A DNA stretch of 46,608 nt from a virus. This document shows positions 1 to 27,716 of this stretch, in pieces. The stretch covers positions 1 to 46,608 of the IMG/VR virus record IMGVR_UViG_3300027965_000072. One strand, written 5' to 3'. How positions within the stretch are numbered: position 1 is the stretch's first letter; every line of letters begins with the position of its first letter. The translations under genes were made by a program, and so were the position numbers. Below the pieces are notes generated by a model. That model was not told the DNA's origin, did no database searches, and saw only the letters and a list, made by a program, of their open reading frames with translations.

Positions 1-75
1 GGATCTAATGACGATAGCAACACTCAGCGTCGAGTCGCGTCGATCACGTTCCTGCAGGAATAAGGATGGCTTTCA

Positions 76-125
76 ATGGAGGCGCGGGTCGGAATCGAAC
101 CGACGAATAAAGGTTTTGCAGACCT
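76..125. repeat. attL: attL core: 50-bp direct repeat of tRNA-Cys 3' end
   Basis: These 50 bases are identical to 46482..46531. Read on the minus strand they are the anticodon loop, T arm, acceptor 3' strand and CCA of tRNA-Cys, but the 5' half of the tRNA is missing here. A tRNA 3' end duplicated at both ends of an element, with an integrase next to one copy, is the usual mark of tyrosine-recombinase integration. The base pairs after the core (accgcg) also match the start of the tRNA acceptor strand, which may be chance. Confidence 0.93.
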
Positions 126-534: not shown

Positions 535-1674
535 TCATTCCCCCACCGCCTTCTTCCCCTGCATCGCAGCCCGCTGCGCCTCCGCCGAAGGATGCACATA
601 CCGGTGAATCGTCCTCAGCGAAGAATGCCCCAGGATCGCCGCGACCACCGCCACCGGCACCCCCTCCTCGATCTTCCGCGTCGCAAACGTATGACGGAAG
701 TCGTACACCACGAACGACACGCCTGCCTCCAGGCAGATCCGGTCATGCGTCGTGTTCAGGTTCCCCAAGTGGTGCCCCGGATGCCGCTCGCTCGGAAACA
801 GCCACTCGCTCGGCAGCTTCGCCCGCCGCTCCAAAATCGCCACGCTCGCATCCGTCAGGTACAGCGTCCGCCGTGCCGCGCGCGTCTTGCCACCTTCGAT
901 CTTCTGCGTCTTTGCCGCCGCATCGAAGGACCAGACCCGTGCCGCCAGCAGCTCCTCCGGCCGCGCGCCCTGCTCGAGCATCAGCCGGGCCAGGTCCGCC
1001 ATGTTCGGCTGCGCATCCTTCACGCTCTTGATATGGATCGCGTGCAATGCCGCCGCGGCTTCGAAATACAGCCGCTCCTCCTCCGCCGTGATCACATGCT
1101 CCCGCACCGCCTCCCGATCGCTCGGGATCGCCACCTCGCGGCGCCCGTCCGGCCCGCGCCCCAGCGGATTCGCCTTCGCCAGTCCGCGCCGGCACGCATA
1201 CTTCCCGAAAAACACCGACAGCGCATGCAGATCGTGCCGGATCGTCACATCCCGCACCGCGTGCACGCGCGCCCGATGCTCGCGGTACGCCTCGATCGCC
1301 GCCGCGCCGATCTCCGCCACCGGCATCTCGCCATAGAACTCGATCGCCGACTGGAAGCTGACGCGCAGCCGCTCCGCCGTCGCCGGTTTCGCCCGATACT
1401 CGACGTCTTTCGCCCACGTCAGAAATGCCTCGGCCGCCTGGCGAAACGGCGCCGACTCGCCAAGCCGCACCACCGCTGCCGCCGCCTTCGGCCGTAGCCC
1501 GGCGCGTTCGATCTCCACCCTCCGCGCGGCCGCGAACTCTTCAGCCGCGCTCCGATTTGAGACGTCGCCGGCGTACCCGGTCGGTCCCGAATACTCCCTG
1601 CCCCGGAAATTGAAGCGGTAATGCCACTGGCCGTCCCGCACCCGCACGTTGCGCCCCTTCGTCAGATCGTCCAT
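535..1674 (-). CDS. int: Tyrosine-family site-specific integrase
   Basis: 379 aa. It catalyses integration of the phage into the tRNA-Cys gene and, with a directionality factor, excision. The N-terminal part (about 1-180) looks like the arm-binding and core-binding domains, and the C-terminal part is a phage-integrase catalytic domain. Visible catalytic residues are R238 in GARPEEL, a lysine in GGKTRAARR, R327-H328 in YDFRHTFATR, H350 in LGHSS and the nucleophile Y359 in HRYVHP. The first His of the usual HxxR box is a Tyr (Y324). The ATG at 1674 was chosen because AAGGAG lies 7 nt upstream; the frame is open to 1716. It overlaps the end of the excisionase-like gene by 134 nt in another frame. 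Its place beside attL is as expected for an integrase. Confidence 0.95.
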   Translation of the reverse strand: MDDLTKGRNVRVRDGQWHYRFNFRGREYSGPTGYAGDVSNRSAAEEFAAARRVEIERAGLRPKAAAAVVRLGESAPFRQAAEAFLTWAKDVEYRAKPATAERLRVSFQSAIEFYGEMPVAEIGAAAIEAYREHRARVHAVRDVTIRHDLHALSVFFGKYACRRGLAKANPLGRGPDGRREVAIPSDREAVREHVITAEEERLYFEAAAALHAIHIKSVKDAQPNMADLARLMLEQGARPEELLAARVWSFDAAAKTQKIEGGKTRAARRTLYLTDASVAILERRAKLPSEWLFPSERHPGHHLGNLNTTHDRICLEAGVSFVVYDFRHTFATRKIEEGVPVAVVAAILGHSSLRTIHRYVHPSAEAQRAAMQGKKAVGE

Positions 1675-1882
1675 AGCCCTGCTCCTTCCGGAGCGATTGT
1701 AGCCACCTTTCGACATCCTCTGCCGCGTACTTAATGGTTCGGTACCCGATCCGGAGCGCCCGCGGCCCGCGCCCGTCCAGTCTCCAATCGTCGAGAGTCC
1801 GCTCCGACACCCCCAGCTTCTCCGCCAGTTCCCCGGGAGAGTAGAGCCGCTGCTCGATCAGCGGCTGCAGCATCGCGCTCAC
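1541..1882 (-). CDS. xis: Excisionase-like small MerR/HTH_17 DNA-binding protein
   Basis: 113 aa. Residues about 13-65 (YSPGELAEKLGVSERTLDDW ... EDVERWLQS) form a winged helix-turn-helix of the excisionase/AlpA type, which places a recognition helix in DNA and bends it. Such proteins set the direction of integrase action or act as small regulators. The GTG at 1882 overlaps the TGA of the ParB-like gene (GTGA), so translation is probably coupled; an ATG at 1873 is the alternative. The last 45 residues are Arg/Gly-rich and overlap the integrase start in another frame, so the functional part is probably only the first 70 residues. The xis role is inferred from position and fold type. Confidence 0.75.
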   Translation of the reverse strand: MSAMLQPLIEQRLYSPGELAEKLGVSERTLDDWRLDGRGPRALRIGYRTIKYAAEDVERWLQSLRKEQGYGRSDEGAQRAGAGRPVALPLQFPGQGVFGTDRVRRRRLKSERG

Positions 1883-9117: not shown

Positions 9118-9121
9118 TCTC

Positions 9122-9397: not shown

Positions 9398-9405
9398 GAG
9401 AAACC

Positions 9406-9694: not shown

Positions 9695-11935
9695 TCACCG
9701 CACCACACCGCCGGCCAGCCGCCCCGTCACCGTAGAGGTCCCCAAGCCCGTTGTAAACGATCCCGTCGCCTTGTAGCCACCAATCACAAACCGGTAGTAG
9801 TACGTGGTGTTCGGCGCCAGCCGCCGGTCGTGTCCGTTCTGGATCACCCCCGAGCCCACGATCAGCTTCCGGTGCGATCCCGTCACGATCGTCCCCGCCC
9901 GCTGGTCCGTATCGCTCAGCGGAAAGTAATCCGGCCGCACGTCATCCACCACCGTGTACGGCCCGGTCTCGTTCGGCAGGTTCGTGCTGGTCGTGACCTC
10001 GATATTCGCGGTCTGTCCCGAGAGCGGCGTGGGCACCGTGTAATCGAACGCGACATTCTCCCAGCCCGGCGTCACCGTGAAATCCGTAATCATCGGCAGC
10101 TGCGTCATGTCGACGCCGATGTCCTTCCCGTCCGTGCCCGCGTTGTGGTACGGAGAAGAAGCCGTCACCGCATAATTGCCCGCCGCGGCGCCCACGAAAG
10201 GATTGCTCCATGCCTGATAGAAGTTGCCCACGCAGGTACCGTGCCCGGTGCACGGCTCGTAAATCGACTGGCTGCGCCCGGGCACGGTGTTGTTCTCGAA
10301 CTCGCCGGTTTGCACCCGCAGACTCCACGCCCCGGTGTTGGCCCCCACGTAGTTCATGCCTTCCCCGTCGCAGTTTGCGCTCATGAATCCGTCCTGCAAC
10401 AGGTTGTTGGTGACGTTGAGGCCGTTATGCCAGGGTGGTCCCGAACACCCCGCGCCCGCCACGAACCACATCGCATAGTAAGTCCACTGCCCCAGGTAAT
10501 CCGTGTTGTGGTTGATCGTGTAGTTCGTCACCCCATTCGTCAGATAGATGCCGTACTGGTTGTATCCGCAGGGGGAGCCGCTGGTGGATGTGCTGGCGCA
10601 GAGAATGCGCGAGTCTTTCCAGCTCAGATTGTTCGAGAACGTATACCCGCTGGAGTTGCCGCCGCCCGGATATTCCGGCACCGCGTAACTGGTGGTGGAA
10701 TAGGCCAGCGTCGCATCCATGCCGCTCGCCCCGAAGAGGCGCGGCGTGTTCACCAGGAGATTGTTCTCGATGTCCACATTGTTGTTCAGCCACCCCGGCT
10801 CCTCGATCTCCACGATCTGGTTCGCCGTGTTGGTGAAGGTGCCATTCGTCGAGTAGGCCCGCGTCGTCGTCGCAGTGCTGGAGGAGGTCACCGTCGCAAT
10901 CGGAATCGCCTCCCACGCCGATCCGGTATTGATCGCGATGACTCGCCCCACCCACGCGGAAGTGAGCGCCCATGCGCCAGTAAAGCTGAGCTGGTTCCCG
11001 CCGCTGATGGTCACCGTCGCGCCGTTCGGAGCCGTGCTGCTCTGCATGATCGGGTTGAACCACAGACCATTCGTCTGATTGCCGCAGCCGTTGCCGCCAT
11101 TCTCGAACCAGTTCCACTTGATGGTCGCGCCGTTCATCTGCTTCAGTTCGAACGGATTCTTCAGGCACAGCGACCGCCCGATGTAATTCGGGCTGTTGCT
11201 GTACCACTTGTACGGCTTGTAGAAAATGTTGTGCTCGACCACCATGTTGGCGCTCGGCGGATCCACATAACCGAGATCCGCGCCGCCCACCAGCACGTTC
11301 TCGCTCGCGCCCACAATCCAGTTGTTTGTCAGCGTGATCGGCCCCGGGCCGCCCCAGGACGCGACACCCTGTCCGTCCTGCGCATCGTACGGCGTCTCCT
11401 CTACCCACGAATCCGCCATCGTGAACCCCTGCGTGTTCGCCACAATCGCGTGATGAACGTCCGTGTTAGTGAAATTGCCGTGGATGTACACCTGCTCCAG
11501 CGTGATCGCCCCAGGCAGGCTCGTGTCTGAACTGGCCGTCTCCGCCAGGCACACGAAGCATTCGATCGCCGTCGTTCCCGAATGCGTGATCTCCACGCCG
11601 CGGATCGTGACGCCCGAAACGTTCGGAGTCTGGGCCGGAATCACAATCCCCTGGTTGTTGGTCAGAACGATCTTCGGAAAGTAGGCCGAGTGCGATGGTG
11701 TAATCCGAATCCCCGCCGCCGGAAGCAGCGATTGGTTCCCCACGATCGTCACGTTGCTCTTGGTCAGGGTGTCGCCCGCCGTGTTGATCGTGCCCGAGAG
11801 CACCAGCGTGTCTCCGGCCTGCACCGCTGCAAACGCGGCCGTCAAGGACACATAGTCGCAACCCGAGGTGCACACCGTGTGCGTCGCCGCCTGCAGAGCG
11901 GCCGCCATTCCCAGCACCACTGCCAGTCTCTTCAT
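9695..11935 (-). CDS. Secreted right-handed parallel beta-helix protein
   Basis: 746 aa. A signal peptide (MKRLAVVLGMAAALQAATHT) is followed by a pectate-lyase-like solenoid: repeated turns with NNWIV, EHNIF, IENNLLVN, FSNNLSW and TINHNTDY patterns (about residues 60-560). The C-terminal 130 residues are a fibronectin-III-like domain with a TTYYYRFVIGG strand. Beta-helix proteins bind or cut polysaccharide; phage tail spikes share the fold, but spikes do not carry Sec signals. The ATG overlaps the LamG-like gene stop (ATGA), so it is the last of a coupled trio. A variant palindrome GCACAC-C-GTGTGC lies at 11871..11883 in the signal-peptide region. Likely secreted or surface-attached cargo. 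Confidence 0.85.
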   Translation of the reverse strand: MKRLAVVLGMAAALQAATHTVCTSGCDYVSLTAAFAAVQAGDTLVLSGTINTAGDTLTKSNVTIVGNQSLLPAAGIRITPSHSAYFPKIVLTNNQGIVIPAQTPNVSGVTIRGVEITHSGTTAIECFVCLAETASSDTSLPGAITLEQVYIHGNFTNTDVHHAIVANTQGFTMADSWVEETPYDAQDGQGVASWGGPGPITLTNNWIVGASENVLVGGADLGYVDPPSANMVVEHNIFYKPYKWYSNSPNYIGRSLCLKNPFELKQMNGATIKWNWFENGGNGCGNQTNGLWFNPIMQSSTAPNGATVTISGGNQLSFTGAWALTSAWVGRVIAINTGSAWEAIPIATVTSSSTATTTRAYSTNGTFTNTANQIVEIEEPGWLNNNVDIENNLLVNTPRLFGASGMDATLAYSTTSYAVPEYPGGGNSSGYTFSNNLSWKDSRILCASTSTSGSPCGYNQYGIYLTNGVTNYTINHNTDYLGQWTYYAMWFVAGAGCSGPPWHNGLNVTNNLLQDGFMSANCDGEGMNYVGANTGAWSLRVQTGEFENNTVPGRSQSIYEPCTGHGTCVGNFYQAWSNPFVGAAAGNYAVTASSPYHNAGTDGKDIGVDMTQLPMITDFTVTPGWENVAFDYTVPTPLSGQTANIEVTTSTNLPNETGPYTVVDDVRPDYFPLSDTDQRAGTIVTGSHRKLIVGSGVIQNGHDRRLAPNTTYYYRFVIGGYKATGSFTTGLGTSTVTGRLAGGVVR

Positions 11936-13077
11936 TGGATGATCAGCCCTCCGCCCGCAAAAGCCGCCCCGTTATCCGTGCCCACGGTGTAGAAAGTCGA
12001 CCCCGGCTTCTGGTTGTTGTAGCTCGCCGTGATCCAGGCCGTCGAGCGCACCACATTCGAGATCCGCGCCTCGTCGATCGTGCCCACCGTGTGCGTGCCA
12101 GAGGTAGAACCGCCGATAACGTTCGCGTACCCGCTGTATACCGCCGATGTGCCCGTATAGGTCGCTGCCTGCAGCCCGTTGATGTAGAGCGTTCCGGTCT
12201 GCCCCGAGCCGATTCCTGTGATCGTGTAGACCAGGTAATACCAGGTATTCAGCGATGGGTTGGCATAAGACATCGCCGCGCCCCAGGTCCCATCCCCGCT
12301 GTCCGCCACACCGGTGAAGTAAGGCGTCGAGCTGGCATAGCTGACTTCCAGGCCATACCCGTAAGTCTGAGCACCCTGCACCTTGCCGAAAATCGAGGAG
12401 TAAATCGTGCCGCTGAAAGCACTGAGATTCACCCACGCCGAAAAGGTCGCGGGCCCCGAGGTCGGCGGATCGGCCGCCAGCGCGATGTAGCTGTTCGCCG
12501 CCGCGAAGCTCTCACCGTATCCGACCAGCCCCGTCACTTGCGCCGGCTCATTGGTCGTGTTCGTGCTGTTGTTCCCGTTAGAGGTGCTGTCCTTGTAGTC
12601 GGCCGCCGCGCCCGTTCCCGCCTCCTTCAGGTGCCACACGCCCTTGTAGTTCGCATCCCACGTCCCCGCCACATTGCCCTGGAACGTCGTGACCGAGGCC
12701 TTCCCGTACCACAGGTAAATCACCGTGCCGTTGCTCAGCGATGGCACATTGATCCACACCACTGCCTGTCCGGTGGTCGCGCTGTAAAGCTCCCACTCGA
12801 ATGCCAGCACCGTGCTGCCCGCCGCATCCGAAGTGAAAATCACATCGCACGCCACAGTCATCGATCCCTGCGCGCAGGTATTCTGCACCATACCGCCATT
12901 TGCCGCCGTTTTCAGAAACGGGAACGTCCCCGAGACGAGCATCGGGAAATTCGTCTGTGTGCCCGGCACCTGGCCGCCGTTCACGCTAATCGTGCGGTAA
13001 TGGCTGTAGCCGTTCGCCCACGGCTGCGCCAGCGCGGCCGTCGACGCAAGCACCAGCGCCAGAAGGATGCGCCTCAT
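11932..13077 (-). CDS. Secreted DUF2341/LamG-like (concanavalin-type) protein
   Basis: 381 aa. Signal peptide at 1-20 ([20 protein letters not shown]). Residues about 20-115 match the DUF2341 type (YSHYRTISVNG ... AVVWINVPSL ... IYLWYG). Residues about 150-365 form a LamG-like jelly roll (KGVWHLKEAG, FSAWVNLSAF, TWYYLVYTIT, TGTLYINGLQ, IDEARISNVVRS). Both modules are typical of carbohydrate or surface binding. The ATG at 13077 overlaps the upstream TGA, and its own stop overlaps the beta-helix start, so the three cargo genes form one translational unit. No catalytic residues are visible, so binding or adhesion is more likely than hydrolysis. Confidence 0.85.
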   Translation of the reverse strand: MRRILLALVLASTAALAQPWANGYSHYRTISVNGGQVPGTQTNFPMLVSGTFPFLKTAANGGMVQNTCAQGSMTVACDVIFTSDAAGSTVLAFEWELYSATTGQAVVWINVPSLSNGTVIYLWYGKASVTTFQGNVAGTWDANYKGVWHLKEAGTGAAADYKDSTSNGNNSTNTTNEPAQVTGLVGYGESFAAANSYIALAADPPTSGPATFSAWVNLSAFSGTIYSSIFGKVQGAQTYGYGLEVSYASSTPYFTGVADSGDGTWGAAMSYANPSLNTWYYLVYTITGIGSGQTGTLYINGLQAATYTGTSAVYSGYANVIGGSTSGTHTVGTIDEARISNVVRSTAWITASYNNQKPGSTFYTVGTDNGAAFAGGGLIIQ

Positions 13078-15101
13078 TGGTCGCACTCCAGCACCAGCGT
13101 CGCCTGCGTTGCGCCGGAAGCCGCCGTCAGCTTGATGCCGACAATGTCATTCTGCGCCACCAGCGTTGTCCAGCCGGTGAGCGTCGTGGAGTGAATCGCC
13201 GTGCCGGTCGAGATCGCCGGCGCCGCCGAAGCCACGATGGAGTTAGCCGAGGTCGGAATCGCCGTGCCGGTCGCCACCTTCCACACATCGAAACTCGCGG
13301 TCCCGGTATCCACCGTGATGTTCCACGCCGAGAGCGTGCACGCGTACGGCACCGTCAGGTACTTCACCTGGCCGGCGGAGAGCGCCGTGCCGCCCCCGTC
13401 GAACGCCCAGCCGATCGCCCGCTTCGCCGGTGCGTACGAGGCGGTCGCCGCGTTGCCCGCATATGGCAGCAGATTCCCGCTCGTGTCGCGGATCTCGAAC
13501 GCCGCGGCCGTCGAATTGAAGAAGGCCACATTGACCGCGTTGTTCATCCATTGCCACCCCGTCACGCCATCGCCATTGCACAGATACACACGCCCCGAGT
13601 TCGTCCCGCCGCCCGTCACCACATACCAGAGCGGCGTCGTGCAGGTAGGCATCGCGGCGTACGTTCCGCTGGATTCCGGCGCAGCAGGCCCGGAAACCGC
13701 CAGCGGGCCCGTGCTCCCCGACTGGAACGACTTGCAGGTCAGATTCCCCGAGCCGTCATCCGTACACCCCGGCAGCGTTCCCGCGCCGACCACCTGCATC
13801 GAGGTGCCGTCATAGTCGAGCAGATAGAGCCCGCCCGCGGTCAGCATGCCATTGCCAAGCGCCACACCCGCCTGCGTCAGCACATTCTTGACGCCGAGCC
13901 CGTTCACATTGATCGTGGTCGCGCCGGTGTTCGTGTTCGCCACCTTCACCAGCAGCGGGCTCTGGCCATAAGCGGAATAAGCGGTCGCTGGCGCGCAGGT
14001 AATCGCGTTTGGCGTCGCCGAAGTGTCCGCGCAGTATACCGTGTTCGCCAGCGACGCCGGCGTCACCACCCCGGCCGGCCCCGTCGGACCGGTCGGACCG
14101 GTCGGACCGGTAGCTCCGATCTGCGACCACAGATTCCAGTTCGCCGGATTGAAGCTCGCCCCGCTCGTAAACGAGGTGCTCGCCTCATAGGTCTGCCCGC
14201 CATACGTCACCACATCGTACGGATTGTAGGCCGTCGCCGTCTGCCACGCCCCGCGGAAAGTGAATCCCTGCCCCTGCGGTCCGGTCGGACCGGTCGGCCC
14301 CACCGCCCCGGTCGGCCCGGTCAGCCCTTGCGGTCCCGTAGGCCCCGTAGCCCCCACCGGCCCCACCAGGCCAGCGATCGACAGGTTCCAGTCCGCGTGC
14401 GTCCCCGATCCGCCGATCCCGCCGCACACGCCCGCCGCGGCCGCCGTCGCAGTAAACGTCAGCGATCCCGTGCCGCTGTTGTAGGCCGTGATCGGCCCCG
14501 TCATGTAGGCCCCCGGCGTCCCGCTGGACGCCAACTGCAGGCATGCCCCCACCGTATAGGCCAGCCCCGGCTGAGTCGTGAGGCTCACGGTGCCAGCTCC
14601 GATCGCCAGCGCCGTCGCGCTCGTCGCCGCGTATCCCGAGGGATACGCCGCCACCCAGTCCCCCGCCGCCGCGCTCCACACCCACAACTGCCCGTCCGCC
14701 AGCCCAGCCCCGTTGATCCGGTGCACGCTCACCACCCCCGCTGGCCCGGCCGAATCCCACAACTGCGGAATCGTCAGCGTCGCGGCCGTCGCCGGCACCA
14801 CCCACCGCTCCTCGCCCATCGGCAGGAGCTGCCCCGCCGCGTTCAGCATCCGGTACTGCGCGCGATAGGTGCAGCCGAAGCAGCCGGCCAGGCTGAAATC
14901 CACCACGCCCCCCGCGCCCACCGTCACCGTCCGGTTGCTCGGCGAAAGCGTCGGGCTCCCCACCGGCCCCGACACCACGATCTGGCTCCCCGCCGGCCAC
15001 GCCGTCTGCCCGTCGTTGAGCAGCAGCGTCCAGTGCACATGCGTCTGCGCCGCCGCCAGGCCGCACCAGGCCACCGCCAGAATTGCGAATTTCCCCCTCA
15101 C
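13074..15101 (-). CDS. Secreted collagen-like protein
   Basis: 675 aa from GTG at 15101 (AAGGAG 6 nt upstream). Signal peptide [19 protein letters not shown]. The N-terminal 240 residues are strand-rich. Two Gly-X-Y runs follow, a long one ([20 protein letters not shown] and onwards, about residues 250-285) and a shorter one ([16 protein letters not shown]), separated by a carbohydrate-binding-like [20 protein letters not shown] segment. The C-terminus (about 300 residues) looks like a trimeric fibre head. Collagen-like repeats are common in phage fibres, but a Sec signal and a position after the endolysin argue for an exported product. A perfect palindromic site (15120..15131) lies just upstream of the Shine-Dalgarno. 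Confidence 0.82.
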
Positions 15102-15119
15102 GCCCGCTCCTTTTCCCTC

Positions 15120-15135: not shown

Positions 15136-15489
15136 CTACGCCCCGATCGCCAGCACGTCCCGCAACGGCGTGTCCGCCGCCACCTGCCCGCCGAACCCCT
15201 CGAGCACGAACCGCAGATACCCCGCCGTGTCGTTCTCCTCCGGCGGTGCCCACTGCGCGATCGCCTCCCCGAGCGTCAGTCCCCGGTCCGCATACAGCCG
15301 GAGCTGCCGCTCGAGGTCCGCCCACCCGTCCGCGTCCGAATCGATCGCCCCGATATCGTCCGGCCCGATCCCCGCGTGCGACGCGTGCGGGGAGTGCCGC
15401 AGATCCCCCGGATTGTGCCGCCGCGCCGGCAGCGTCCCCGCGCGAAAGAACCCCTCCTCCGTCGCGATCAGTTGCGCCAGGCGCGTCAC
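15136..15489 (-). CDS. Endolysin (lysozyme/transglycosylase-like muramidase)
   Basis: 117 aa. The sequence LAQLIATEEGFFRAGTLPAR, then RHNPGDLR, then DGWADLERQLRLYADRGLTL and IAQWAPPEEN...YLRFVLEGFG is the layout of small phage muramidases with a lysozyme-like fold. The Glu in ATEEGF is the likely catalytic residue, and the Trp-Ala-Pro segment closes the fold. It would cut peptidoglycan at lysis. It starts by ATGA overlap with the holin-like gene, the usual holin-endolysin order. Confidence 0.85.
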   Translation of the reverse strand: MTRLAQLIATEEGFFRAGTLPARRHNPGDLRHSPHASHAGIGPDDIGAIDSDADGWADLERQLRLYADRGLTLGEAIAQWAPPEENDTAGYLRFVLEGFGGQVAADTPLRDVLAIGA

Positions 15490-15641
15490 TGGTTATGGTC
15501 CTTCGCCGCGACCAGCCCCGAGGCCGCAAAGACCGCCGCTGTCGCCTGGATCTTCGCGCTCAGATCCTTCGGCGCCCAGATCGGCGCGATCGCCGCCGCG
15601 AGCGTCAGCACGCCCGCCACCGTCGTCCGCCAGTTCTTCAC
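15486..15641 (-). CDS. Holin-like small membrane protein
   Basis: 51 aa from GTG at 15641, which overlaps the upstream TGA. The sequence KNWRTTVAGVLTLAAAIAPI, then a short polar loop (WAPKDLSAKI) and QATAAVFAASGLVAAKDHNQ fits a well-known type of small phage membrane protein with two short helices and a GLVAAKDHN end. It is usually called a holin because it sits next to the endolysin, as here. It would permeabilise the inner membrane so that the endolysin reaches the wall. Confidence 0.8.
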   Translation of the reverse strand: MKNWRTTVAGVLTLAAAIAPIWAPKDLSAKIQATAAVFAASGLVAAKDHNQ

Positions 15642-15817
15642 TTCTCCTCCTTCGGCGAAAGATTCAACCGCTCCGCCAGCCCGCGCCACTTGGCCAGCTC
15701 GTCGAGCAACGGCTGTACAATCTCCGCCTTCATGCGGTCAATGGCCTCGTTCACCACGCCGCGGCCGCGGTCGATCGCCTCGTCAATGGTTTGCTTGCTC
15801 TCAACGTCCATCGCCAT
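15638..15817 (-). CDS. Small helical protein upstream of the holin
   Basis: 59 aa (MAMDVESKQTIDEAIDRGRG and onwards, ending LNLSPKEEK). AAGGAGA lies just before the ATG at 15817, a strong ribosome binding site. Its TGA overlaps the holin GTG. The sequence is a charged amphipathic helix without membrane segment, suggesting a coiled coil. It could be a soluble holin regulator or a structural helper; not recognised. Confidence 0.75.
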   Translation of the reverse strand: MAMDVESKQTIDEAIDRGRGVVNEAIDRMKAEIVQPLLDELAKWRGLAERLNLSPKEEK

Positions 15818-16257: not shown

Positions 16258-16833
16258 TCAGAACGTCTTGCGGATGTCGAGCAGGTACGACGGCTTCACC
16301 GCGTTCGCGCCCGCCGGCGCCGCCGGAGCCGCCACGTAATCCGCGTGAAACACGATCGGCAGATGAAACTTCTTTTTGCTGGCCAGGTAGCCCAAGTCGA
16401 ACCCCACCGCCGCCCCGCCCCCGAACGTCGCCGTAGTCACCGTCCCCGACCCCGAGGCTGCCTGCACCACCCCGAGATGCCCATCCCCGATAAATTCGAA
16501 ATACCCGCTGTGCACCAGGTGGTATTCGAACCGCTCCGAGAGCAGCGCATACCCCGGCGTCGGATTGCTGGCCCCGATCCCCGTCGTGATCGTCGTCACC
16601 AGGAACGCATTGGAGCACGTCCCCGTCTTGACCCCGAACCCCGTGCTCAGCGACGGCAGCTTCGCGAACTGGTCGTATCCGATCGCCGTCGACCCGAAAT
16701 ACGAATACGGCGTGTTCGGTGCCCCCGCCGGACACTCGGCCGCGGCCGGAGCCGCCGGCGTCGTGTTGATGGCCTGCCCGCACGCGCACACCGCGAGCAC
16801 GGACGCAAGAGTGATTACAAGCATCGCCTTCAT
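16258..16833 (-). CDS. Exported protein, possible outer-membrane beta-barrel
   Basis: 191 aa. Signal peptide at about 1-21 (MKAMLVITLASVLAVCACGQ). The mature protein is rich in Gly and aromatic residues with alternating strands (ALLSERFEYHLVHSGYFEFI, GGGAAVGFDLGYLASKKKFH). It ends in SYLLDIRKTF with a terminal Phe, the usual BAM-recognition signature of outer-membrane barrels. About 160 residues would suit an 8-strand barrel. It lies in the late operon between fibre genes and lysis genes. Likely roles are receptor masking in the lysogen or a lysis-related outer-membrane function; both are inference. Confidence 0.65.
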   Translation of the reverse strand: MKAMLVITLASVLAVCACGQAINTTPAAPAAAECPAGAPNTPYSYFGSTAIGYDQFAKLPSLSTGFGVKTGTCSNAFLVTTITTGIGASNPTPGYALLSERFEYHLVHSGYFEFIGDGHLGVVQAASGSGTVTTATFGGGAAVGFDLGYLASKKKFHLPIVFHADYVAAPAAPAGANAVKPSYLLDIRKTF

Positions 16834-17640: not shown

Positions 17641-20097
17641 TTAGACGTACCCGTTGTAAATTCCGTAAGTCAACTGAAGCCGCTTCTGCCCAACGTTCGA
17701 CCCGTTGACCACAAGATTGCAGTAATTTCCGGTGTCCGCGTCCTGAATGCCGATGTCGATCACCCCGGAAACCCCGCTGTACCCGCCGACAGTGAGGGAG
17801 GAGCACGTCACGCTGTAGCTTGGGCAATACACCCCCGCGCCCGTGAACTGGCCGGATGAGTTGATCGCCGTGGTGCCGTTGATGACAAGGTAATTGAAAT
17901 AGGCAGGGTACGACGGGCTATAGACCCCATAGCCGGAGTACGAACTGCTGGCGTAAAAGGCGCCCTGGAACGTAGATGCAGAGAGAGTGCCTGAGATCGA
18001 TAGGCCGCCGGCTCCAATAGACAGGCCATAGCAGTACGTTGTGCCGCCGCCGAAATATGCCGCATAGGATGGGCAGTAAACGCCGTATCCGCTGTAGGCA
18101 CCGAAAACGTTCAGGCCGTATCCGGCGTTCAGCAAGCCCGACGAGGTGACGACCATCGCTCCGTTCAGTTGGAGGTAGTTGCTGAGAACGTTCAGACCCG
18201 ATCCGCCCGCCGACAGTTGAATATTGTTTGTATTGATGGTGACGCCATTCGTTCCGTCACTGAGCTGCATCCGGTTCGGAAAGACCGTTGCCGAATACCC
18301 GGAATAGCTGCATGTCAGGCCGGCAAAAGACGTAGAGGTAGTAGAGGTTATCTGCAGGCCGTTCGACGTGGAACTAGCGAAGATCGTCGACGAGCTCGTG
18401 TAAACCGTAATCCCCGTCCCCGACCCCGCCAGCGCGCTCCCGCACTCGATACTCCCCGCCAGATGGGCATTCCCCGACGTATCGAGCCAGATTTTCGGGT
18501 TCGTCGGATCAGTGCCCCCGATCCATACGTTCTGAAACCACGCGCCATAGTACGTCGTGCCGCCGATCGCCTTGCTGCCAAACCAGCCGATCACACTGCC
18601 GCCGTTGACAATCTGCTGCACCGTCTGCGCGGCTCCGGCTCCCGTATTGATCGGCCCCGTCACGCCCGACCACGGCACACTGCTAGCGCTCCCGGCCGTT
18701 CCAGCGCTCGAAGCATAGCCCGCTGTGGTGGCGTTGGTAGCGTTGGTCGCATTGGTCGCGTTGGTAGCGTTCGTGGCATTAGTCGCATTGGTGGCGTTCG
18801 TCGCGTTCGCCACCGCTCCAGAAACCTGCGATCCCTGGACTTGGGCATTCGCCGGGTTAAGCTCCAAGTCGAAGTAAGCCGCCCCGCCAGGCCATGCGTC
18901 TTGAACAGTCTCCGTGCCGCCGGTCCCGCCATCCTGTCTGGTGGCTACACCCATCGTAAACCGGTACACGACGTCTCGCGTGCTCGGCACCGGCCAGCCG
19001 CCCACCACCGCCTGAACCTGCCCCGCCGCGATCGTCGATACCAGCGACATAAACGACGCGTGGTCCTGCACGTTGTACCCGTTGCCGTTCGGCCCGGCCC
19101 AATCCCCCAGCGCCAGCGACGTCGCCTGCGGCCCCTCCGCCGTGAACGTCGAAGGCGTCCCCGGTGTCGCGTAATAACCCGTCTGCACGTACAGCCGCGC
19201 ATAGAAAAACTTCGGGTCGCTCAGCGGCAGCGTGAAGGTGATCGTCGTGTTCCAGAGGTTCGCGCCGCCAGGCCCCGCGTAGTAGTTAATCGCCGGCGTC
19301 CCGCTCACCGACGCCACGTTGTTCGCGAACACGCCCGGAGGGCTCACGCTAACCGTGCAGGACTGTACCCCGGCTGCGGTGGTAATATCCGTCGCCGAAT
19401 CCACCGTCCCCGGAGCCACATACACCGTCACGGTTTCAGCCGCCGCGGTCGGCGGATAGATCGTCGTTGCCCCACCCTTCTTACCGAGGTAAATTGTGGT
19501 AGGGCCGCTCAGCACAAACCAGCCGTGCCACAGCCTGCCATACTGCGGGCTATTGGTCGCAATGGTGATCGGAATGGGGTACGCCGGCGCCGACACCGCC
19601 ACCGCCACCACCGCGTGCAGATCCCCACTGGTGCCCTGCCAGCGGTCCGTGGTATCGTCCGTCGCCGTTGGCGCATTCACCTCGTAGGCGGGAAGCGACA
19701 ATCCGCTAATGATGTACGGGCTCGGCGTCGGAGCTCCCGCAGTGTTGACGGATACGAACTCCGCCGCGAGCCCGGATGCTCCAGCAAACCCCGGCGGAAG
19801 AACCTCGGTCGGAACAACGCGCCCGTACGCTACCGAGGTACCGGCGCTTGCGGCCAATAACGCCTTGTCGAGAGTAAACGCCAGCAGGGCTTTCCCCGTG
19901 CCGGATGCGGCATTCAACAGGTACACGTCTACATGGTCCAGCGTACCTAGGGCCGACGGCACATTGACCGACCCGGATAACGCCGCCATTACCGCGTTCC
20001 CCACCATTTGCAGCACGATCGTGCACGTCGCCGTCACGTTCGGCGCCGCCGCCGGCGGCGTGTACCCCGGAGCCGATTTGAGAATCCACTCGCCCAT
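17641..20097 (-). CDS. Tail fibre protein with NAT repeats
   Basis: 818 aa. The N-terminal 370 residues are strand-rich and probably attach to the tail. A run of nine Asn-Ala-Thr triplets (about residues 431-457) makes a fibre shaft of the kind seen in lambda-like side fibres. The C-terminal 340 residues carry strands of the type KIWLDTSGNAHLAG (a common shaft-to-head element) and degenerate repeats with YSGYGVYCPSYAAYF and YSGYGVYSPSYPAYF. It would bind the host receptor. It has no Sec signal, in contrast to the collagen-like protein downstream. The Tyr-Ser-Gly-rich repeats are unusual. Confidence 0.85.
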   Translation of the reverse strand: MGEWILKSAPGYTPPAAAPNVTATCTIVLQMVGNAVMAALSGSVNVPSALGTLDHVDVYLLNAASGTGKALLAFTLDKALLAASAGTSVAYGRVVPTEVLPPGFAGASGLAAEFVSVNTAGAPTPSPYIISGLSLPAYEVNAPTATDDTTDRWQGTSGDLHAVVAVAVSAPAYPIPITIATNSPQYGRLWHGWFVLSGPTTIYLGKKGGATTIYPPTAAAETVTVYVAPGTVDSATDITTAAGVQSCTVSVSPPGVFANNVASVSGTPAINYYAGPGGANLWNTTITFTLPLSDPKFFYARLYVQTGYYATPGTPSTFTAEGPQATSLALGDWAGPNGNGYNVQDHASFMSLVSTIAAGQVQAVVGGWPVPSTRDVVYRFTMGVATRQDGGTGGTETVQDAWPGGAAYFDLELNPANAQVQGSQVSGAVANATNATNATNATNATNATNATNATNATTAGYASSAGTAGSASSVPWSGVTGPINTGAGAAQTVQQIVNGGSVIGWFGSKAIGGTTYYGAWFQNVWIGGTDPTNPKIWLDTSGNAHLAGSIECGSALAGSGTGITVYTSSSTIFASSTSNGLQITSTTSTSFAGLTCSYSGYSATVFPNRMQLSDGTNGVTINTNNIQLSAGGSGLNVLSNYLQLNGAMVVTSSGLLNAGYGLNVFGAYSGYGVYCPSYAAYFGGGTTYCYGLSIGAGGLSISGTLSASTFQGAFYASSSYSGYGVYSPSYPAYFNYLVINGTTAINSSGQFTGAGVYCPSYSVTCSSLTVGGYSGVSGVIDIGIQDADTGNYCNLVVNGSNVGQKRLQLTYGIYNGYV
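18727..18807 (-). repeat. Nine 9-bp units encoding Asn-Ala-Thr
   Basis: Nine codon triplets AAY-GCN-ACN in tandem. Third positions vary between units, so the protein repeat is kept while the DNA has diverged, which argues for selection on the shaft. Confidence 0.9.
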
Positions 20098-20100: not shown

Positions 20101-23100
20101 CTATAGCCCCTCGATCACCACGCACGCCGCCGCGCCGCCGGCCCCCGGCGTAATCTGGTAGTCCGCCGTCGAACCGTTCAGGCTATCCCCCGTGTTCTCG
20201 CGCAGCCACACCGAATGCGTGCTCCCCGCGGCCAGGTTGAACGTCAGATCCTTGCCGCTCATCCCGCTCTCCGCCGGCAGCAGCAGGTACACGTCCTGCG
20301 TCGTCGCCACGATGTTGTACACCGCGGCCTCCGCCGGCAGCACAAACGGGCTCCCCGTCGTGCCCGCCCCCGCCAGCGCCGGCGAGCTCGTCCCGTTGGT
20401 GATCGCATACGAGATATCGGCCCCGGCTTGCAGCAGCAGCCCCTGCGTCGAGTTCCCCGTCAGGCACACGTAATGGACCGGCGAATCCCCCCAGCCGTTC
20501 GTCACGCTGCCGCCCACGCTCACCAGCTTCGTTCCCGGCAGCGGTTGCAGCAGCGACCAGTCCGCGAACGCCGCCGAATTCACGAAGCTCAGCGGAAATG
20601 CGCACGTCTGCACCGTCTGCTCGACCGCCCAGCAGCTCGCCCCGTTCGCCGCGGCCGCCGCCGTGCTCCCGAGCTGCCCGCGCGCAATCGGCACCACGCC
20701 GCTGCTCGGCGCGCCCGTTGCCTGCACGATCTCCGCCCCGATCTGCAAATAGTCGCCCGAAGCCACATGCGAGGCGTCCGTCAGCGTGACAGTCGCATCG
20801 CTCGCGCCCAGCGCCGCCGCCAGCGTAGTCAGCGGACTATTTGGCAGCACGTAATAGAAAGTCCACGTCCCCGCAGTGATCGAATAAGCATTCGTCAGGT
20901 CCGAGAACGCCAGCCCCGTCACTTCGGCAGAGCTCCCGTCCCCGCCAGCCTCCACCGCGAACGTCGGCGGCACGGTCGGACCCACCCCCACCTTCGGCGC
21001 CGATCCATACTGAGGGTCCTGCGCATTCCCGTGCGAATCCAGATACCACGAATCCTCGTGATGGTGCCCCGCCAGCGTGATCGTCTGCCAGTTCTTCGCC
21101 GGCTTGATCTCCGTGAGCCGGATCTGCTGATCCGTCATCCCGTACTTCGTGCTATTCACCGTCACGATCTGCCCGATGCGCAGCTTGCACCCGCGGAAGC
21201 TCGTCTCCCACTCCCAGAAGTCCGTCCCGCGCGTATCGCCTTCCGGATTCCCCCGGTGGATCTTGTTCAGCCCCAGCCGCGCGCACCGCAGCGCATGGTT
21301 GTAGCTCGCGATCCCCTCCGGCTGCACCTGCAAGCCGCCCTGCACCGTGCGCCCCACCCGCGCCACATCGTCCGAATCCACCAGGCTGAACGTCGAAATC
21401 GCGTAATCCTGCACCGGGTCCTGGAATCCGAAGGTGATCCGGTTCGGCATCTGCGCCACCGGCATCGGCCGCCGCTTCAGGTTCCAGCTATTCGTCTCGT
21501 CGAACCGGTACGCCGTGTACCCGTTCGCGGCCGTCCCGTCCCGCAGCGTGCTCGCGATCGCCGTGCTGTAGTTGCTCCCATCCACCGCTGCCGGCTGCTG
21601 CTCCGCCAGCGGGCCCTCGATCCGGAACCCGATCGTCCCGTCCTGCTCCTGCGTCAGCATCCCGCCCACCGACTGCCGCAGCCCCCGCATGATGTCCGCC
21701 GCGCTCCGCCGCTGCCGCAGCGCGACGGAATTCGAAAACCGCGGCTGCGTATAGTTGTTCCCCGAGCCGTCCTGCGTCGTAATCAGCGCGTTGCAGATCG
21801 CGTCCGAGTCGCTGAAGGTAGTGCCGTTCAGATCGCCCGGCTGCACCCCGCACCAGCTCAGCAGCTCCTGCGCCAGGCCCGGCGCGGGGCCGCCCCCCGA
21901 TTGCGTGACCTGGTTGTAGTACATCGTGCCGCCGCTGCCGCTGCCCGCCGGCGCAAAACTCCCCTGGAGCGTCGCATGATCGTATGGCGGAGGGTCGAGA
22001 AACCGCATGATCCACGAACCGTCCGCGTAATGGAACCCGGCGCCCGTGATCGTCACCGCCGCACCATCGTAAGGGTCCGTGGTCAGGGTCAGCGCGCGCG
22101 CAAAGTGAATCACGATGGGCCCCGGATTCCCGCTCGATCCCGCGTTCGCCGACACAATCGCGATCGAACTCGGCGTCACCAGCGTTCCGCCCACCGACTT
22201 CTGAGCCAGCACCTGAATCGTCGGCACCGTCTCCGGAGACACCACCGATTTCGGCACGCGCCACTCGATCACCGTCAGGTTGCCGTAAGGATCGCCCAGC
22301 CCGTTGTACCCGGCGTCCGGGTTCGGCGTGCCGTCACGCTGCCCATTGTTCGTGTAGGCCCAGTAGTAATCCGTGCCGCCGGCCGTGTTCTGCGTGCACT
22401 CCACCCCGTTCACGATCACCCGCTGCACCGCCACCTCGCCGAACCCGATCGCAGCCTCGCCGCGCGTGTAGTTCCCGTCCCCCATCTGGTTCAGCACCGC
22501 CACGGACATCCAGGCCATGCCGCCCAGCCACAGCGGCCAGTACTCGTTGTACTTGGCCGAGGTGTCCGCGTTGGTCCAGGAAACCTCGTTCCCGCTCACG
22601 TACTCCACGCCCGTGTCCGTCGTTTTCGGCACGAACGTCACGTTCCCGCGCCGGCGCGGCTGCGTGCAGGTCTGCGTGGTGTAGTTGCAGGGCGGCGCCG
22701 TCGTCAGGTCCCGCGTCTCCCCGCACAGCCAGTACGGCGAATCCTGGTAGGACGTCGCCGCCGCGGCCGCCGCCCGCTGCGCCACCGTCGTCGGATTCAC
22801 CCACGGGCACGTCACCTGGATCGGCACCGTCGGCAGCAGGTAATTCGCCAGGTTCAGCTTGGATTGCGCCGCCACCGTCAGATACTGCTCGTCGCTCGCC
22901 GGCTCGTCGCACACCCCCACGAACGGCACGAACTGATCCGTCGAATACGTCCCCGCCGAGAGATCCATCAGCGCAAACCGCAGCGTAAGTGCCGCGCCCT
23001 TGAAGCCGTGCCCCCGCTCGTACGCCGTGAAGGCAGCCGCGTCCGGGTCCGCCAGCTTCAGCGTCACCGAGGGCACCCGGTCGATCCCCTGCTGGCTCAG

Positions 23101-23280
23101 CACCTGCAACTGGTCCACCTGCTGGTCGTCGATCCGCGCCTCGTAGGTGTGCCCGTTGAACGTCGCCGGCACCGACGCCACATACCACGCCGTGCCATCC
23201 GGAAACGCGAAGTCGCAGAACACCACCGGCCGCGGCGCCGCCGCCTCTTCCTTGCCCGTGTTGATCGTGTAGCCGCCCAT
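20101..23280 (-). CDS. Tail-tip/baseplate hub protein (gpJ-like central tail protein)
   Basis: 1059 aa. Size, place after the minor tail proteins and directly before the fibre, and a multi-domain strand-rich sequence fit the central tail-tip hub that attaches fibres and contacts the cell. Segments in order: an N-terminal hub-like domain (residues about 10-140, VFCDFAFPDGTAWYVASVPA ... FVPFVGVCDEPA), a Cys-containing insertion (CPW, CGE, CNYTTQTC, about 165-210), a middle domain with DIMRGLRQSVGGMLTQEQDG (about 535), and a C-terminal part with carbohydrate-binding-like strands. I chose the ATG at 23280; a GTG inside the palindrome at 23301 is also in frame. The family assignment is by layout more than by motif. 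Confidence 0.75.
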   Translation of the reverse strand: MGGYTINTGKEEAAAPRPVVFCDFAFPDGTAWYVASVPATFNGHTYEARIDDQQVDQLQVLSQQGIDRVPSVTLKLADPDAAAFTAYERGHGFKGAALTLRFALMDLSAGTYSTDQFVPFVGVCDEPASDEQYLTVAAQSKLNLANYLLPTVPIQVTCPWVNPTTVAQRAAAAAATSYQDSPYWLCGETRDLTTAPPCNYTTQTCTQPRRRGNVTFVPKTTDTGVEYVSGNEVSWTNADTSAKYNEYWPLWLGGMAWMSVAVLNQMGDGNYTRGEAAIGFGEVAVQRVIVNGVECTQNTAGGTDYYWAYTNNGQRDGTPNPDAGYNGLGDPYGNLTVIEWRVPKSVVSPETVPTIQVLAQKSVGGTLVTPSSIAIVSANAGSSGNPGPIVIHFARALTLTTDPYDGAAVTITGAGFHYADGSWIMRFLDPPPYDHATLQGSFAPAGSGSGGTMYYNQVTQSGGGPAPGLAQELLSWCGVQPGDLNGTTFSDSDAICNALITTQDGSGNNYTQPRFSNSVALRQRRSAADIMRGLRQSVGGMLTQEQDGTIGFRIEGPLAEQQPAAVDGSNYSTAIASTLRDGTAANGYTAYRFDETNSWNLKRRPMPVAQMPNRITFGFQDPVQDYAISTFSLVDSDDVARVGRTVQGGLQVQPEGIASYNHALRCARLGLNKIHRGNPEGDTRGTDFWEWETSFRGCKLRIGQIVTVNSTKYGMTDQQIRLTEIKPAKNWQTITLAGHHHEDSWYLDSHGNAQDPQYGSAPKVGVGPTVPPTFAVEAGGDGSSAEVTGLAFSDLTNAYSITAGTWTFYYVLPNSPLTTLAAALGASDATVTLTDASHVASGDYLQIGAEIVQATGAPSSGVVPIARGQLGSTAAAAANGASCWAVEQTVQTCAFPLSFVNSAAFADWSLLQPLPGTKLVSVGGSVTNGWGDSPVHYVCLTGNSTQGLLLQAGADISYAITNGTSSPALAGAGTTGSPFVLPAEAAVYNIVATTQDVYLLLPAESGMSGKDLTFNLAAGSTHSVWLRENTGDSLNGSTADYQITPGAGGAAACVVIEGL

Positions 23281-23297
23281 CGCATGCGAAGCGGCGC

Positions 23298-23309
23298 GCA
23301 CACGTGTGC
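23298..23309. promoter_or_regulatory. Dispersed palindrome, site 4 (GCACACGTGTGC)
   Basis: Perfect copy in the 48-bp gap between the gene ending at 23329 and the start of the hub gene. Confidence 0.75.
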
Positions 23310-24713: not shown

Positions 24714-27700
24714 TTACCCCATCCGCTGCTGCAGCGCCGCCACCGTATCCTCCGCGTTCCCGCCCTGCACCGCCCCCGCGATCCCCGCGCTCAGCGCTGC
24801 CGGATTCCGCAGCAGGAAATCCTGCAAGCTCACCGAGTCCATCGCATACAGCGTGTTGCTCACCTGGATCTGCCGGCTCTGCCCCAGGAAATTGGTATCC
24901 GTGTACTTCCCCGAAGCGTCGAGCGAATACTCCGCCCCGCTCGGCATGGTGAAGCTGCGCTCCTGCGCTTCCTTCTGAAGCTGCTGCTGCCGCTGCTGCT
25001 TCGGATCGCCCAACAGCGCCGTAATCAGCCCCAGCCCCATCCCCACCGCCATCCCGATCGGCCCCGCCTCGCTCAGCGACTTGCTCAGCAGCGGCAGCAC
25101 CGAGCCCATCATCCCCGCGAAGCTCGCCCCCGCCGAAAGCCCGCCGCGCAGGCCGCCTTCCGAAACCCCGTTGTAAATCCCGAATCCGCCGGCCGCCAGC
25201 GCCGCCCCGATCCCCAGATCTTTCCCCCAGCCGCCGCCGGCATAATTCGCCGGGTTCCCTGTCAGACCAACCGACCCCCACGCCAGCCCCGGATTGAATC
25301 CCACGCCGCCCGGCAAGTTGGCCAGGTCCGCCGGCGTCGGCGCGGCTCCGTAATCCAGCGGATTCCCCGTCAGCCCCGCCAGCCCCCATGCCAGCGACGA
25401 ATTGAACCCGGACCCCGGCAAAGCAGCCAGCGCCGCCGGACCCCCCGTCAGCCCCGCCAGGCCCCACGCCAGCGACGGACTGAACCCGCCATCGCCCATC
25501 GGCAGCGCCCGCATCGCCGCCGTATTCGCGATCGTCGCCTGCGTATTGGCATCCAGCGCCACCTTCTGCGCATCCGGTCCGAACGGCGTCCCCGCCAGCA
25601 GGTTCCCCAGGAAGCTCCCCGCTCCCGCGTGCGGAATGAGCTGGCTGATCTCCTTCCAGCCCATCTGCGCGAAGTTTCCCACCACCGTGTCCGCCAGCCC
25701 CAGCCCCTGCTGCCGCGCAAAATCCCCCAGGTGCCCCGTGCGCCCCGCATTGAAGGCCCCGACCGCGAGCGATCGCCACTTCTCCAGCCGCTGCTGCTCG
25801 AGCTCCGCCAGCTTCAGCTCCCGGTCCAGGTCCGCGTCGTACATCTCGCGATGCAGATCCGCCAGCGCCTTCGCCTGGTCGATCGCCTTCGCGTGCAGGT
25901 CCTCTTCCTGCTCCGCGGCCGCCATGTCGAACGTGTAGAGCTGCTGCGCCAGCGAGAGCCGCATCGCATACCCCGCCGCGATCGCCTCGCCCTCATGCCC
26001 GGGCCCGAGTTGGAGCTGCTGCAGCCGGTCCTGGCGATTCACCGTCCGCACGATGTCCTGCCGGTTCGTCTCCTGGTGAATCCGAGCGATCTCCTCCCCC
26101 GTCCGGACGCCGGCCTCGACCTCGGCCAGAAACCCCTTCACGGCCTCGCCGCTCTCTTTGCCCAGCAACTGGTACACCGGGGTCCAGGCCGCCGACGCCT
26201 CCGCCGCGCTCCGCGCCGCCAGCTTCTCCCCCTGCTTCTCGAGCTCCTCCTGCTGCTTCTGCATCTCGACCGACACGCCGCCAAATGCCGCCGCCGCCGC
26301 CCGCGCCGGATCCGCTCCCCTCGCGATCAGCGCATCCATCTGCTGCAGAATGCGCTCCACCGGGCTCGAGCCGGCCTCGAACATCTGCTTCTCGAACGCA
26401 TCCAGCGCGTGCTCTGCGTCCAGCGCATCCTTCGCCGCCTTCGCCCGCGCCTCCAGCCCCGCCACCACTCCCTTCTGCTCGGCGATCTGGTCCGCGATCG
26501 GCCCCGTCACCGAATACGGCGCCTTGAGCTGAATCTGCGATTGCAGTTGCCCCTGCAAGTCCCGCAGCTTGTTTCGCGCCGCCTCCATCTCGCCGGCATC
26601 GCCCATCGGTGCCAGCGCGCTCGCAAAAGACAGCGCCGAGGCATCCACCGCCACGGGAGCACCGAACCCCGCCGCGATCCCCCGGTTCCGCTCCGCCTGG
26701 AGCGCATCCCGGAAGCGCTTCTCCTGCGCGTCCGAGACGTAACCGGCCGCCTCGAGCGCCCCGAACCGCCGCTCCAGATCCTCCGCCGGCGTCTTCCCGA
26801 TTTGCCCCATCAGCGCCTGCACCGCCGCCGCGCCGATGTCCGAGACGTCCCCCGTCACGCCCCGCACCGCGATCGAAAACGTCGCCGCCAGCGGCTCCTT
26901 GATCCGCGCCGCAAACTCTTCCCACCGCGCCTCGGCCTCGGCGATTTGCTTGTGGTACTGCTCCCAGCTATGGATGTCCTTCTCGTCGATTCCTAACCCC
27001 AGCTCTTTCGCGCGCTCCAGGTTCTCGCTCAGCCCAATGATCGTCGGCATCAGCTCGATCCCCGCGCGTCCGAACACCAGCAGCGCTTCGGCGTTCCGCT
27101 TCGCCGGCTCCTCGATCCGGTTCAGCGATTCCGAAATCTGCAGGAAGATATCCGACATCGGCCGCAGCTTGCCGTTCGCATCGTAAGCCTGCACCCCGAG
27201 ATCCGCCAGCCCCTGCCGCGCCCGCTTGCCCTCTTCGCTGGTATCGCCGAGGCCCTGGCTCAGCTTCCGCATCGCCGCCTCGAACACGCTCACATCCTGG
27301 CCCGCCGCCCGCGCCGCAAAGCTGAACTGCCCGACCTCCTTCGTCGTCAGCCCGGTCCGTAGCGCCGTGTTCTCGATCTGCGTCGCGTATTCGCCCAGCG
27401 CGTGCGCCGCTTCGAAGGCCGCCGTCCCCGCCGCGCCGAAGATCCCGGCCGCCGCGGCCAGTCCCGCACCCAGGGGTCCCACCGCCCTCAGCGCCGCCTC
27501 GGAGGCCTCCCCGATCGCCTGCAGTGGGTTCTCGATCCCCTCTTTGACCTTCTCCGCGAACTCGCCGAACCCGTCGTGCTCGTTGAGAGCCTCGCCGTGC
27601 TTGCCCGCGCCCTCGATCGCCGCGCCCAACCGCTCGAAGGACTGCGCCAGCCGCTCGACGTCCGCCGTCCCGACGCCCTGCGCCGAGACCACGCTGCTGA

Positions 27701-27716
27701 ACTGCGTTACTGGCAC
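24714..27716 (-). CDS. Tail tape measure protein
   Basis: 1000 aa. This is the longest late gene. It sits after the tail tube and G/GT chaperones and before the tail-tip proteins, as tape measures do. The N-terminal part has the tape-measure pattern of alpha-helical and Ala/Gly-rich membrane-like stretches (GPLGAGLAAAAGIFGAAGTA) and TTKEVGQFSFAARAAGQDVS. The middle (about 360-650) is coiled coil. The C-terminal third is Gly/Leu-rich with three degenerate repeats and a hydrophobic block. At roughly 1.5 angstrom per residue the tail would be about 150 nm. It scaffolds tube length and is ejected with the DNA. Confidence 0.9.
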   Translation of the reverse strand: MPVTQFSSVVSAQGVGTADVERLAQSFERLGAAIEGAGKHGEALNEHDGFGEFAEKVKEGIENPLQAIGEASEAALRAVGPLGAGLAAAAGIFGAAGTAAFEAAHALGEYATQIENTALRTGLTTKEVGQFSFAARAAGQDVSVFEAAMRKLSQGLGDTSEEGKRARQGLADLGVQAYDANGKLRPMSDIFLQISESLNRIEEPAKRNAEALLVFGRAGIELMPTIIGLSENLERAKELGLGIDEKDIHSWEQYHKQIAEAEARWEEFAARIKEPLAATFSIAVRGVTGDVSDIGAAAVQALMGQIGKTPAEDLERRFGALEAAGYVSDAQEKRFRDALQAERNRGIAAGFGAPVAVDASALSFASALAPMGDAGEMEAARNKLRDLQGQLQSQIQLKAPYSVTGPIADQIAEQKGVVAGLEARAKAAKDALDAEHALDAFEKQMFEAGSSPVERILQQMDALIARGADPARAAAAAFGGVSVEMQKQQEELEKQGEKLAARSAAEASAAWTPVYQLLGKESGEAVKGFLAEVEAGVRTGEEIARIHQETNRQDIVRTVNRQDRLQQLQLGPGHEGEAIAAGYAMRLSLAQQLYTFDMAAAEQEEDLHAKAIDQAKALADLHREMYDADLDRELKLAELEQQRLEKWRSLAVGAFNAGRTGHLGDFARQQGLGLADTVVGNFAQMGWKEISQLIPHAGAGSFLGNLLAGTPFGPDAQKVALDANTQATIANTAAMRALPMGDGGFSPSLAWGLAGLTGGPAALAALPGSGFNSSLAWGLAGLTGNPLDYGAAPTPADLANLPGGVGFNPGLAWGSVGLTGNPANYAGGGWGKDLGIGAALAAGGFGIYNGVSEGGLRGGLSAGASFAGMMGSVLPLLSKSLSEAGPIGMAVGMGLGLITALLGDPKQQRQQQLQKEAQERSFTMPSGAEYSLDASGKYTDTNFLGQSRQIQVSNTLYAMDSVSLQDFLLRNPAALSAGIAGAVQGGNAEDTVAALQQRMG
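25252..25495 (-). repeat. Three degenerate repeats in the tape measure
   Basis: Protein repeats of the form GF(S/N)xxLAWGLAGLTGxP appear three times (SPSLAWGLAGLTGG, NSSLAWGLAGLTGNP, NPGLAWGSVGLTGNP), separated by 15-20 residues. Confidence 0.85.

Follow-up and report, generated by a model that had tools for sequence, protein, structure and literature searches.

The window, which is the whole stretch of 46,608 nucleotides analysed (IMG/VR virus record IMGVR_UViG_3300027965_000072), contains a complete prophage integrated at a tRNA-Cys gene. A 57-nt repeat, which copies the 3' part of the tRNA-Cys, is found at both prophage ends with a 96% match (Table 1), and this repeat and the integrase gene confirm that the element is a prophage, as the initial annotation had stated. 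The repeats also enclose ParB (1879-4044) and primase genes, and the late genes lie on the minus strand, heading towards position 9695. A HigB/HigA-type toxin-antitoxin pair on the plus strand (9101-9690) faces the end of this late gene run. The palindrome GCACRCGYGTGC shows eight exact copies in the window (positions 3878, 7227, 15120, 23298, 28326, 32650, 38134 and 46303), where 2.6 are expected even allowing one mismatch; one copy falls in the gap that separates the lysis gene from the start of the fibre gene, and as the phage has its own ParB, these copies may be ParB binding sites. Homologues of the tail-tip protein, mostly of about 1300 residues, occur widely in Bryobacterales (203 of 257 genomes). 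This points to a domesticated tail or gene-transfer-agent-like element present almost throughout the order; no relative of the protein was found among phage records.

Table 1. Features of the prophage and of its fibre-type gene, with positions in the window
Feature	Position	Strand	Basis or remark
Attachment-site repeat, integrase side	69..125	+	Repeat comparison
Tyrosine integrase	535..1716	-	
Third signal-peptide gene, 746 aa, parallel beta-helix predicted by sequence pattern	9695..11935	-	Signal rule
Second signal-peptide gene, Laminin_G_3 lectin-like domain and DUF2341	11932..13086	-	Pfam, signal rule
Sec-tagged, collagen-containing fibre-type protein, 675 aa	13074..15101	-	GTG start; frame open to 15125
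C-terminal knob of the fibre, phrog_35197 type	13077..13469	-	Beta-sandwich model, conserved Cys pair
Second short Gly-X-Y run, 5-6 triplets	14066..14119	-	Approximate limits
CBM5/12 (chitin-binding-like) module, residues 285-321	14139..14249	-	Below Pfam cut-off
First Gly-X-Y (collagen-like) run, about 12 triplets	14268..14375	-	
N-terminal beta-rich domain	14685..15047	-	26-30% identity with L006, L008 and L026 proteins
Signal peptide, residues 1-18, predicted cleavage AAA/QTHVHW	15048..15101	-	Rule-based
Ribosome-binding site AAAAGGAG	15107..15114	-	5 nt before GTG 15101
Endolysin-like protein	15136..15489	-	Weak PHROG support
Small membrane protein, holin-like	15486..15689	-	Position and hydrophobicity
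Further signal-peptide gene, upstream of the lysis genes	16258..16833	-	Signal rule
818-aa tail-fibre-like protein, without signal peptide	17641..20097	-	Signal rule
Tail-tip protein, without signal peptide	20101..23301	-	PHROG and signal rule
Tape measure protein	24714..27716	-	
Major capsid protein	32700..33764	-	
Portal protein	36230..37804	-	
Terminase, GpA type	38034..40562	-	
Attachment-site repeat, tRNA-Cys side	46475..46531	+	Repeat comparison, tRNA call

Sec signals were assessed with a rule of our own and not with SignalP. According to this rule, the fibre-type protein carries the signal peptide that the initial annotation had read there, with an n-h-c organization, an Ala-X-Ala-type site and a valid start; the Gly-X-Y runs described in the same annotation are real, although short. 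The protein matches Pfam Collagen with an E-value of 0.004 and 17.3 bits, under the gathering score of 27.2, and CBM5/12 with 5e-5 and 23.8 bits, under the gathering score of 26.2. Its sequence matches PHROG tail fiber families (phrog_5073, 5e-16; phrog_819 and phrog_10972); however, tail fibers would be expected to lack an export signal and to be assembled in the cytoplasm, whereas this protein has a signal peptide by our rule. The C-terminal part matches the unnamed family phrog_35197 (9e-15), and no virion-binding domain was recognised in the protein. Among cultured phage records it has one match, through the CBM module alone, which shows 66% identity over 38 residues with a tail fiber of Tunturi_5. 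The AlphaFold2 model of the knob is a beta-sandwich (pLDDT 78) without Foldseek matches in PDB at an E-value of 0.001 or better, the best match being the disulfide-linked Ena endospore appendages (0.0045); searches against solved structures with the knob and the N-terminal domain gave nothing below 0.2. BclA-type bacterial collagen-like surface proteins, which are not phage proteins, also join a collagen run to a C-terminal beta-sandwich, and the weak structural matches of the knob include the exosporium ExsF/BxpB folds, none of which reaches an E-value of 0.001.

The two neighbours of the fibre gene on its 3' side, at 11932-13086 and 9695-11935, also encode signal peptides by our rule, which the initial annotation had omitted. 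The three genes (fibre, lectin-like and beta-helix) form a cassette placed after the tail and lysis genes with almost no spacing, showing overlaps or small gaps, so that gene order supports a late timing of the cassette. The 9695-11935 protein shows no Pfam or PHROG match, and single-protein scans with it and with the tail-tip protein gave no viral relatives. The rule was positive in 18 of the 262 mechanical ORFs of at least 60 residues in the window (7%), one of which is the small membrane protein at 15486-15689, as expected of a membrane segment. The run of three signal-peptide genes among 26 late genes gave a permutation p of 0.08, which is weak alone. The total cysteine content did not separate the exported proteins of the window from its replication proteins, so we rely on the cysteine pair of the knob and on the tailspike comparison described below. 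The fibre gene lies downstream of the gene initially annotated as an endolysin, an identity that is only moderately supported, with the 15136-15489 product matching both the endolysin family phrog_873 (1e-9) and a tape-measure family (3e-10). In addition, a head-decoration-type gene (33793-34671, phrog_49) encodes a hydrophobic N-terminus, and its relative in the prophage G228 (region 3272-4075) passes the signal rule.

Scans with the knob domain recovered four distinct viral contigs and two Acidobacteriota genome contigs. In the order of one of the latter, a Bryobacterales MAG, the knob was found in 10 of 257 genomes, those of both contigs included. Twelve knob loci were read in frame, two of which are cut off upstream, and the signal rule was passed by nine of the remaining 10 (eight of nine distinct loci, as L003 and L008 are nearly identical); the tenth, L026, is negative by the rule and looks signal-peptide-like by eye. 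This count leaves out three weak matches (G028, G029 and G157), two of them positive by the rule and one unflagged, with no Lys or Arg before the hydrophobic stretch. In an alignment of 11 sequences, both cysteines of the knob pair are present in 10 and both absent in one, a pattern that points to a disulfide bond and therefore to folding outside the cytoplasm. Signal peptides and cysteine pair together reinforce the export that the initial annotation had suggested for this protein. In the podoviruses L006 and L008, the knob gene is located between genes that, by reading their sequences, resemble coat and tail accessory genes of the P22 type, and adjoins other signal-peptide genes, one of them directly after the coat gene. 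This last gene has a homologue, also with a signal peptide, at the same place in G524 with 40% identity. The post-coat protein (L006 3923-4699, L216 12762-13559) is common to two P22-like Acidobacteriota phages, and its gene stands where a decoration gene might be found.

The prophage G040 (L030) shows four signal-peptide genes between structural and lysis genes, which encode a tailspike, a 169-residue protein, a 185-residue protein made of signal peptide, collagen and knob, and a 670-residue protein. Two to four consecutive signal-peptide genes are found in the prophages L030, L026, G050 and G169. The L006 fibre and the G436 tailspike are positive by the rule; two beta-helix proteins (L008 and L009) and the G160 fibre failed it and look signal-peptide-like by eye only. 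Further copies of the knob lie in chromosomal, exopolysaccharide-type surroundings.

The first of the four G040 genes belongs to the PHROG tail spike families, and the start predicted for its mature form aligns with Met1 in the tailspike of Xanthomonas phage PBR31 and of an uncultured podovirus 'colanidase'. The domain has four cysteines in L030 and none in these two counterparts. According to the part of the PBR31 paper available (PMC10975493), the N-terminal part of its tailspike apparently binds the virion. We used the N-terminal domain of the L030 tailspike (A4) as a probe. In IMG/VR, none of 56 loci with this domain (38 distinct) showed a signal peptide, and the proteins start at the domain itself. 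In cellular genomes, A4 was found in four of 257 genomes of the order and in 10 of 399 in an even draw of the class Terriglobia, draws that overlap and unite in 11 genomes. A signal peptide directly precedes the domain in all 11 (10 by the rule and G513 by eye), one of which, G523, is a marginal match (E 7e-4). The difference between 11 of 11 and 0 of 56 gave a Fisher p of 3e-11, or 1e-9 by the rule alone; as a contrast between lineages, it draws on the genome set. By our reading, six of the 11 genes lie among podovirus-like structural genes (G040, G099, G186, G436, G524 and G367), G523 is beside a terminase-like gene, G289 comes from a contig of 3.6 kb, and three (G028, G382 and G513) show chromosome-like contexts. 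No untagged tailspike was recognised in the stretches read in G099, G186 and G524. The median cysteine content of the mature tagged tailspikes was 1.69%, versus 1.11% in 35 control proteins (p 0.004; p 0.0006 without G523 and G289). The fibre of the window is not a member of this tagged tailspike class and has a different N-terminal domain; what it has in common with the class is limited to signal, position and knob type, its knob matching that of a G040 gene.

Chance hydrophobic N-termini or wrongly assigned start codons could imitate signal peptides, given the 7% background of the rule in mechanical ORFs and the uncertainty of GTG starts. Their recurrence in diverged homologues, the contrast of tagged and untagged tailspikes, the good ribosome site and the cysteine enrichment argue against such an origin, and we regard non-functional signals as very improbable. 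Export of the late adhesins through the host Sec pathway is, judged from these sequences, highly probable. The assumption behind the initial annotation, that phage fibres need no Sec signal, is called into question by these wider data for this host group.

A related terminase was found in 63 of the 257 Bryobacterales genomes. The late regions of 30 prophages were sought, and the 15 with at least 18 kb downstream were counted, the rest being too short; two more reached 13-14 kb. Signal-peptide genes end the late module in three of these 15 terminase-positive prophages: G050 has two, the first encoding a collagen protein, G169 has two and G204 has one. Most other sampled prophages are a different element without such cassettes, with single rule-positive genes elsewhere, and G228, the closest by its terminase, stops where the cassette would begin. 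The family phrog_15455, with matches in 101 of the 257 genomes, was dropped as these appeared to be host pectate-lyase-like proteins.

Among cultured phages, the podovirus Tunturi 2, which infects Tunturiibacter (Terriglobia), shows five rule-positive products in six consecutive genes between a tail gene and the endolysin (gp12, gp13, gp14, gp16 and gp17; permutation p 0.0016), and none in the other 21 late genes examined. Three of them are annotated as tail fiber (gp13), pectin lyase (gp14) and virion structural protein with 34 cysteines (gp17). In the siphovirus Tunturi 4, gp113 (tail protein) and gp114 (virion structural protein) are rule-positive, and gp114 shows 49% identity with gp17 of Tunturi 2 over 664 residues. 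Neither Tunturi 3 (20 genes) nor Tunturi 5 (eight genes) showed a positive among the chosen late genes that these counts cover. Predicted Sec-tagged adhesins are thus a feature of some Acidobacteriota phages, and the pattern is not universal. Outside this phylum, PBR31 and BcepC6B, from Proteobacteria hosts, each show a signal-peptide fibre-type protein of another family between tailspike and holin (QIN95346.1, 'putative structural protein', and gp19, respectively); in its C-terminal part, this protein is similar to virion tail fibers from Pectobacterium and Klebsiella phages. A literature search in open-licence papers found no description of signal peptides on the tail fibers or tailspikes of these phages. 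In the available part of the Tunturi paper (PMC11924767), the terms "signal peptide", "mass spectrometry" and "SDS-PAGE" are absent from the main text; the portion of the PBR31 paper seen (PMC10975493) mentions a signal peptide for the esterase gp40 alone; and the sections seen of two papers that name BcepC6B (PMC3765740, PMC8579659) contain nothing on its signal-peptide fibre-type protein.

The cultured phages bear on the initial proposal that the host exports the adhesin in the lysogenic state. The element is an integrated prophage with other likely cargo, the HigB/HigA pair, and export is likely, so a dormant prophage might express an adhesin that benefits its host. Exported accessory proteins such as Lom and Bor of phage λ come from genes near tail or lysis genes, are expressed in the lysogen and leave the cytoplasm, but they are not fibre or tailspike proteins. 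Against lysogenic conversion, the cassette continues the late gene run closely, which argues for late co-transcription, and sister cassettes are found inside podovirus virion modules, as well as in Tunturi 2 and Tunturi 4, which are lytic isolates. According to the accessible part of their description, the Tunturi phages have lytic cycles, and an integrase or recombinase is named in Tunturi 3-5 and none in Tunturi 2 (PMC11924767). We therefore consider expression for the benefit of the lysogen improbable.

Our preferred reading, to which we give an even chance, is that the fibre of the window, which belongs to a virus of soil bacteria, is a late phage adhesin, predicted to be Sec-exported, and one member of a three-gene cassette that would reflect a recurrent habit of Acidobacteriota phages, whose fibre or tailspike-type proteins bear a signal peptide ahead of the usual protein. 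Textbook assembly of tailed phages is wholly cytoplasmic. Starting from what is observed (signal peptides, gene order, lineage contrast and cysteine enrichment), we tentatively propose a two-compartment arrangement, which we rate as rather less than evenly probable, in which heads and tails would be built in the cytoplasm and adhesins in the periplasm, both being joined only during lysis. The adhesins would be made late in infection, threaded through Sec and cleaved, and would fold in the periplasm with disulfide bonds; once holin and endolysin opened the inner membrane and the wall, the finished adhesins would meet the capsids, and join or coat them on their way out. Virion attachment as the main use of the exported adhesins comes close to an even chance, on its lower side.

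The main rival to virion joining is soluble or cell-surface action, in which the exported proteins would never join virions and would act outside the cell late in infection. They might bind and mask receptor glycans, which would block both superinfection and renewed binding to debris; alternatively, they might cut host exopolysaccharide so that progeny can spread. The CBM5/12, Laminin_G and beta-helix-type content with a lectin-like gene beside the fibre, the pectin lyase annotation of Tunturi 2 gp14, the untagged fibres present in the window phage and the chromosomal relatives all speak for a role off the particle. Having an untagged fibre and a tip protein, the window phage need not rely on the exported fibre, and the knob also occurs in secreted host proteins encoded close to exopolysaccharide-type genes, in keeping with a role at the cell surface. 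Furthermore, in PBR31 and BcepC6B the exported fibre-type protein adjoins a normal tailspike and has its C-terminal part in common with virion tail fibers of other phages. On the other side, the tagged tailspikes retain after the signal peptide the N-terminal domain thought to bind virions and occupy the standard tailspike position, which favours use on the virion, and three of the stretches that carry them have no recognised untagged tailspike. We see action off the virion as a serious possibility, well short of an even chance.

Collagen runs, beta-helix, N-terminal tailspike domain, knob and place in the gene order are those of the tail fibers and tailspikes of tailed phages, such as P22/PBR31-type tailspikes and the PHROG tail fiber families; however, the 56 IMG/VR tailspikes and the two reference members begin at the domain, while those described here carry a Sec signal peptide and extra cysteines. 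The coat proteins of filamentous phages are virion proteins that also take the Sec or a membrane route, but there the entire particle leaves by extrusion across the envelope, whereas the phages considered here are tailed and lytic and assemble their particle in the cytoplasm. If the virion adhesins of the phages of one bacterial phylum do take the Sec route, the secretion and disulfide machinery of the host would bear on host range, on receptor binding and on the timing of lysis. Should they act off the virion instead, these phages would be releasing a late set of lectins and lyases into the soil, and genes now listed as 'carbon-cycling' cargo may in fact serve infection. With two isolated phages whose hosts are in culture, the choice between virion and off-virion use is open to immediate testing. 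Finally, many of the exported proteins terminate in a short hydrophobic stretch whose last residue is Gln (IIQ, IVQ, VVQ or CDQ), for example those encoded at 11932 in the window, L008 9799 and L009 10181, and overlapping ATGA start-stops may explain part of these endings.
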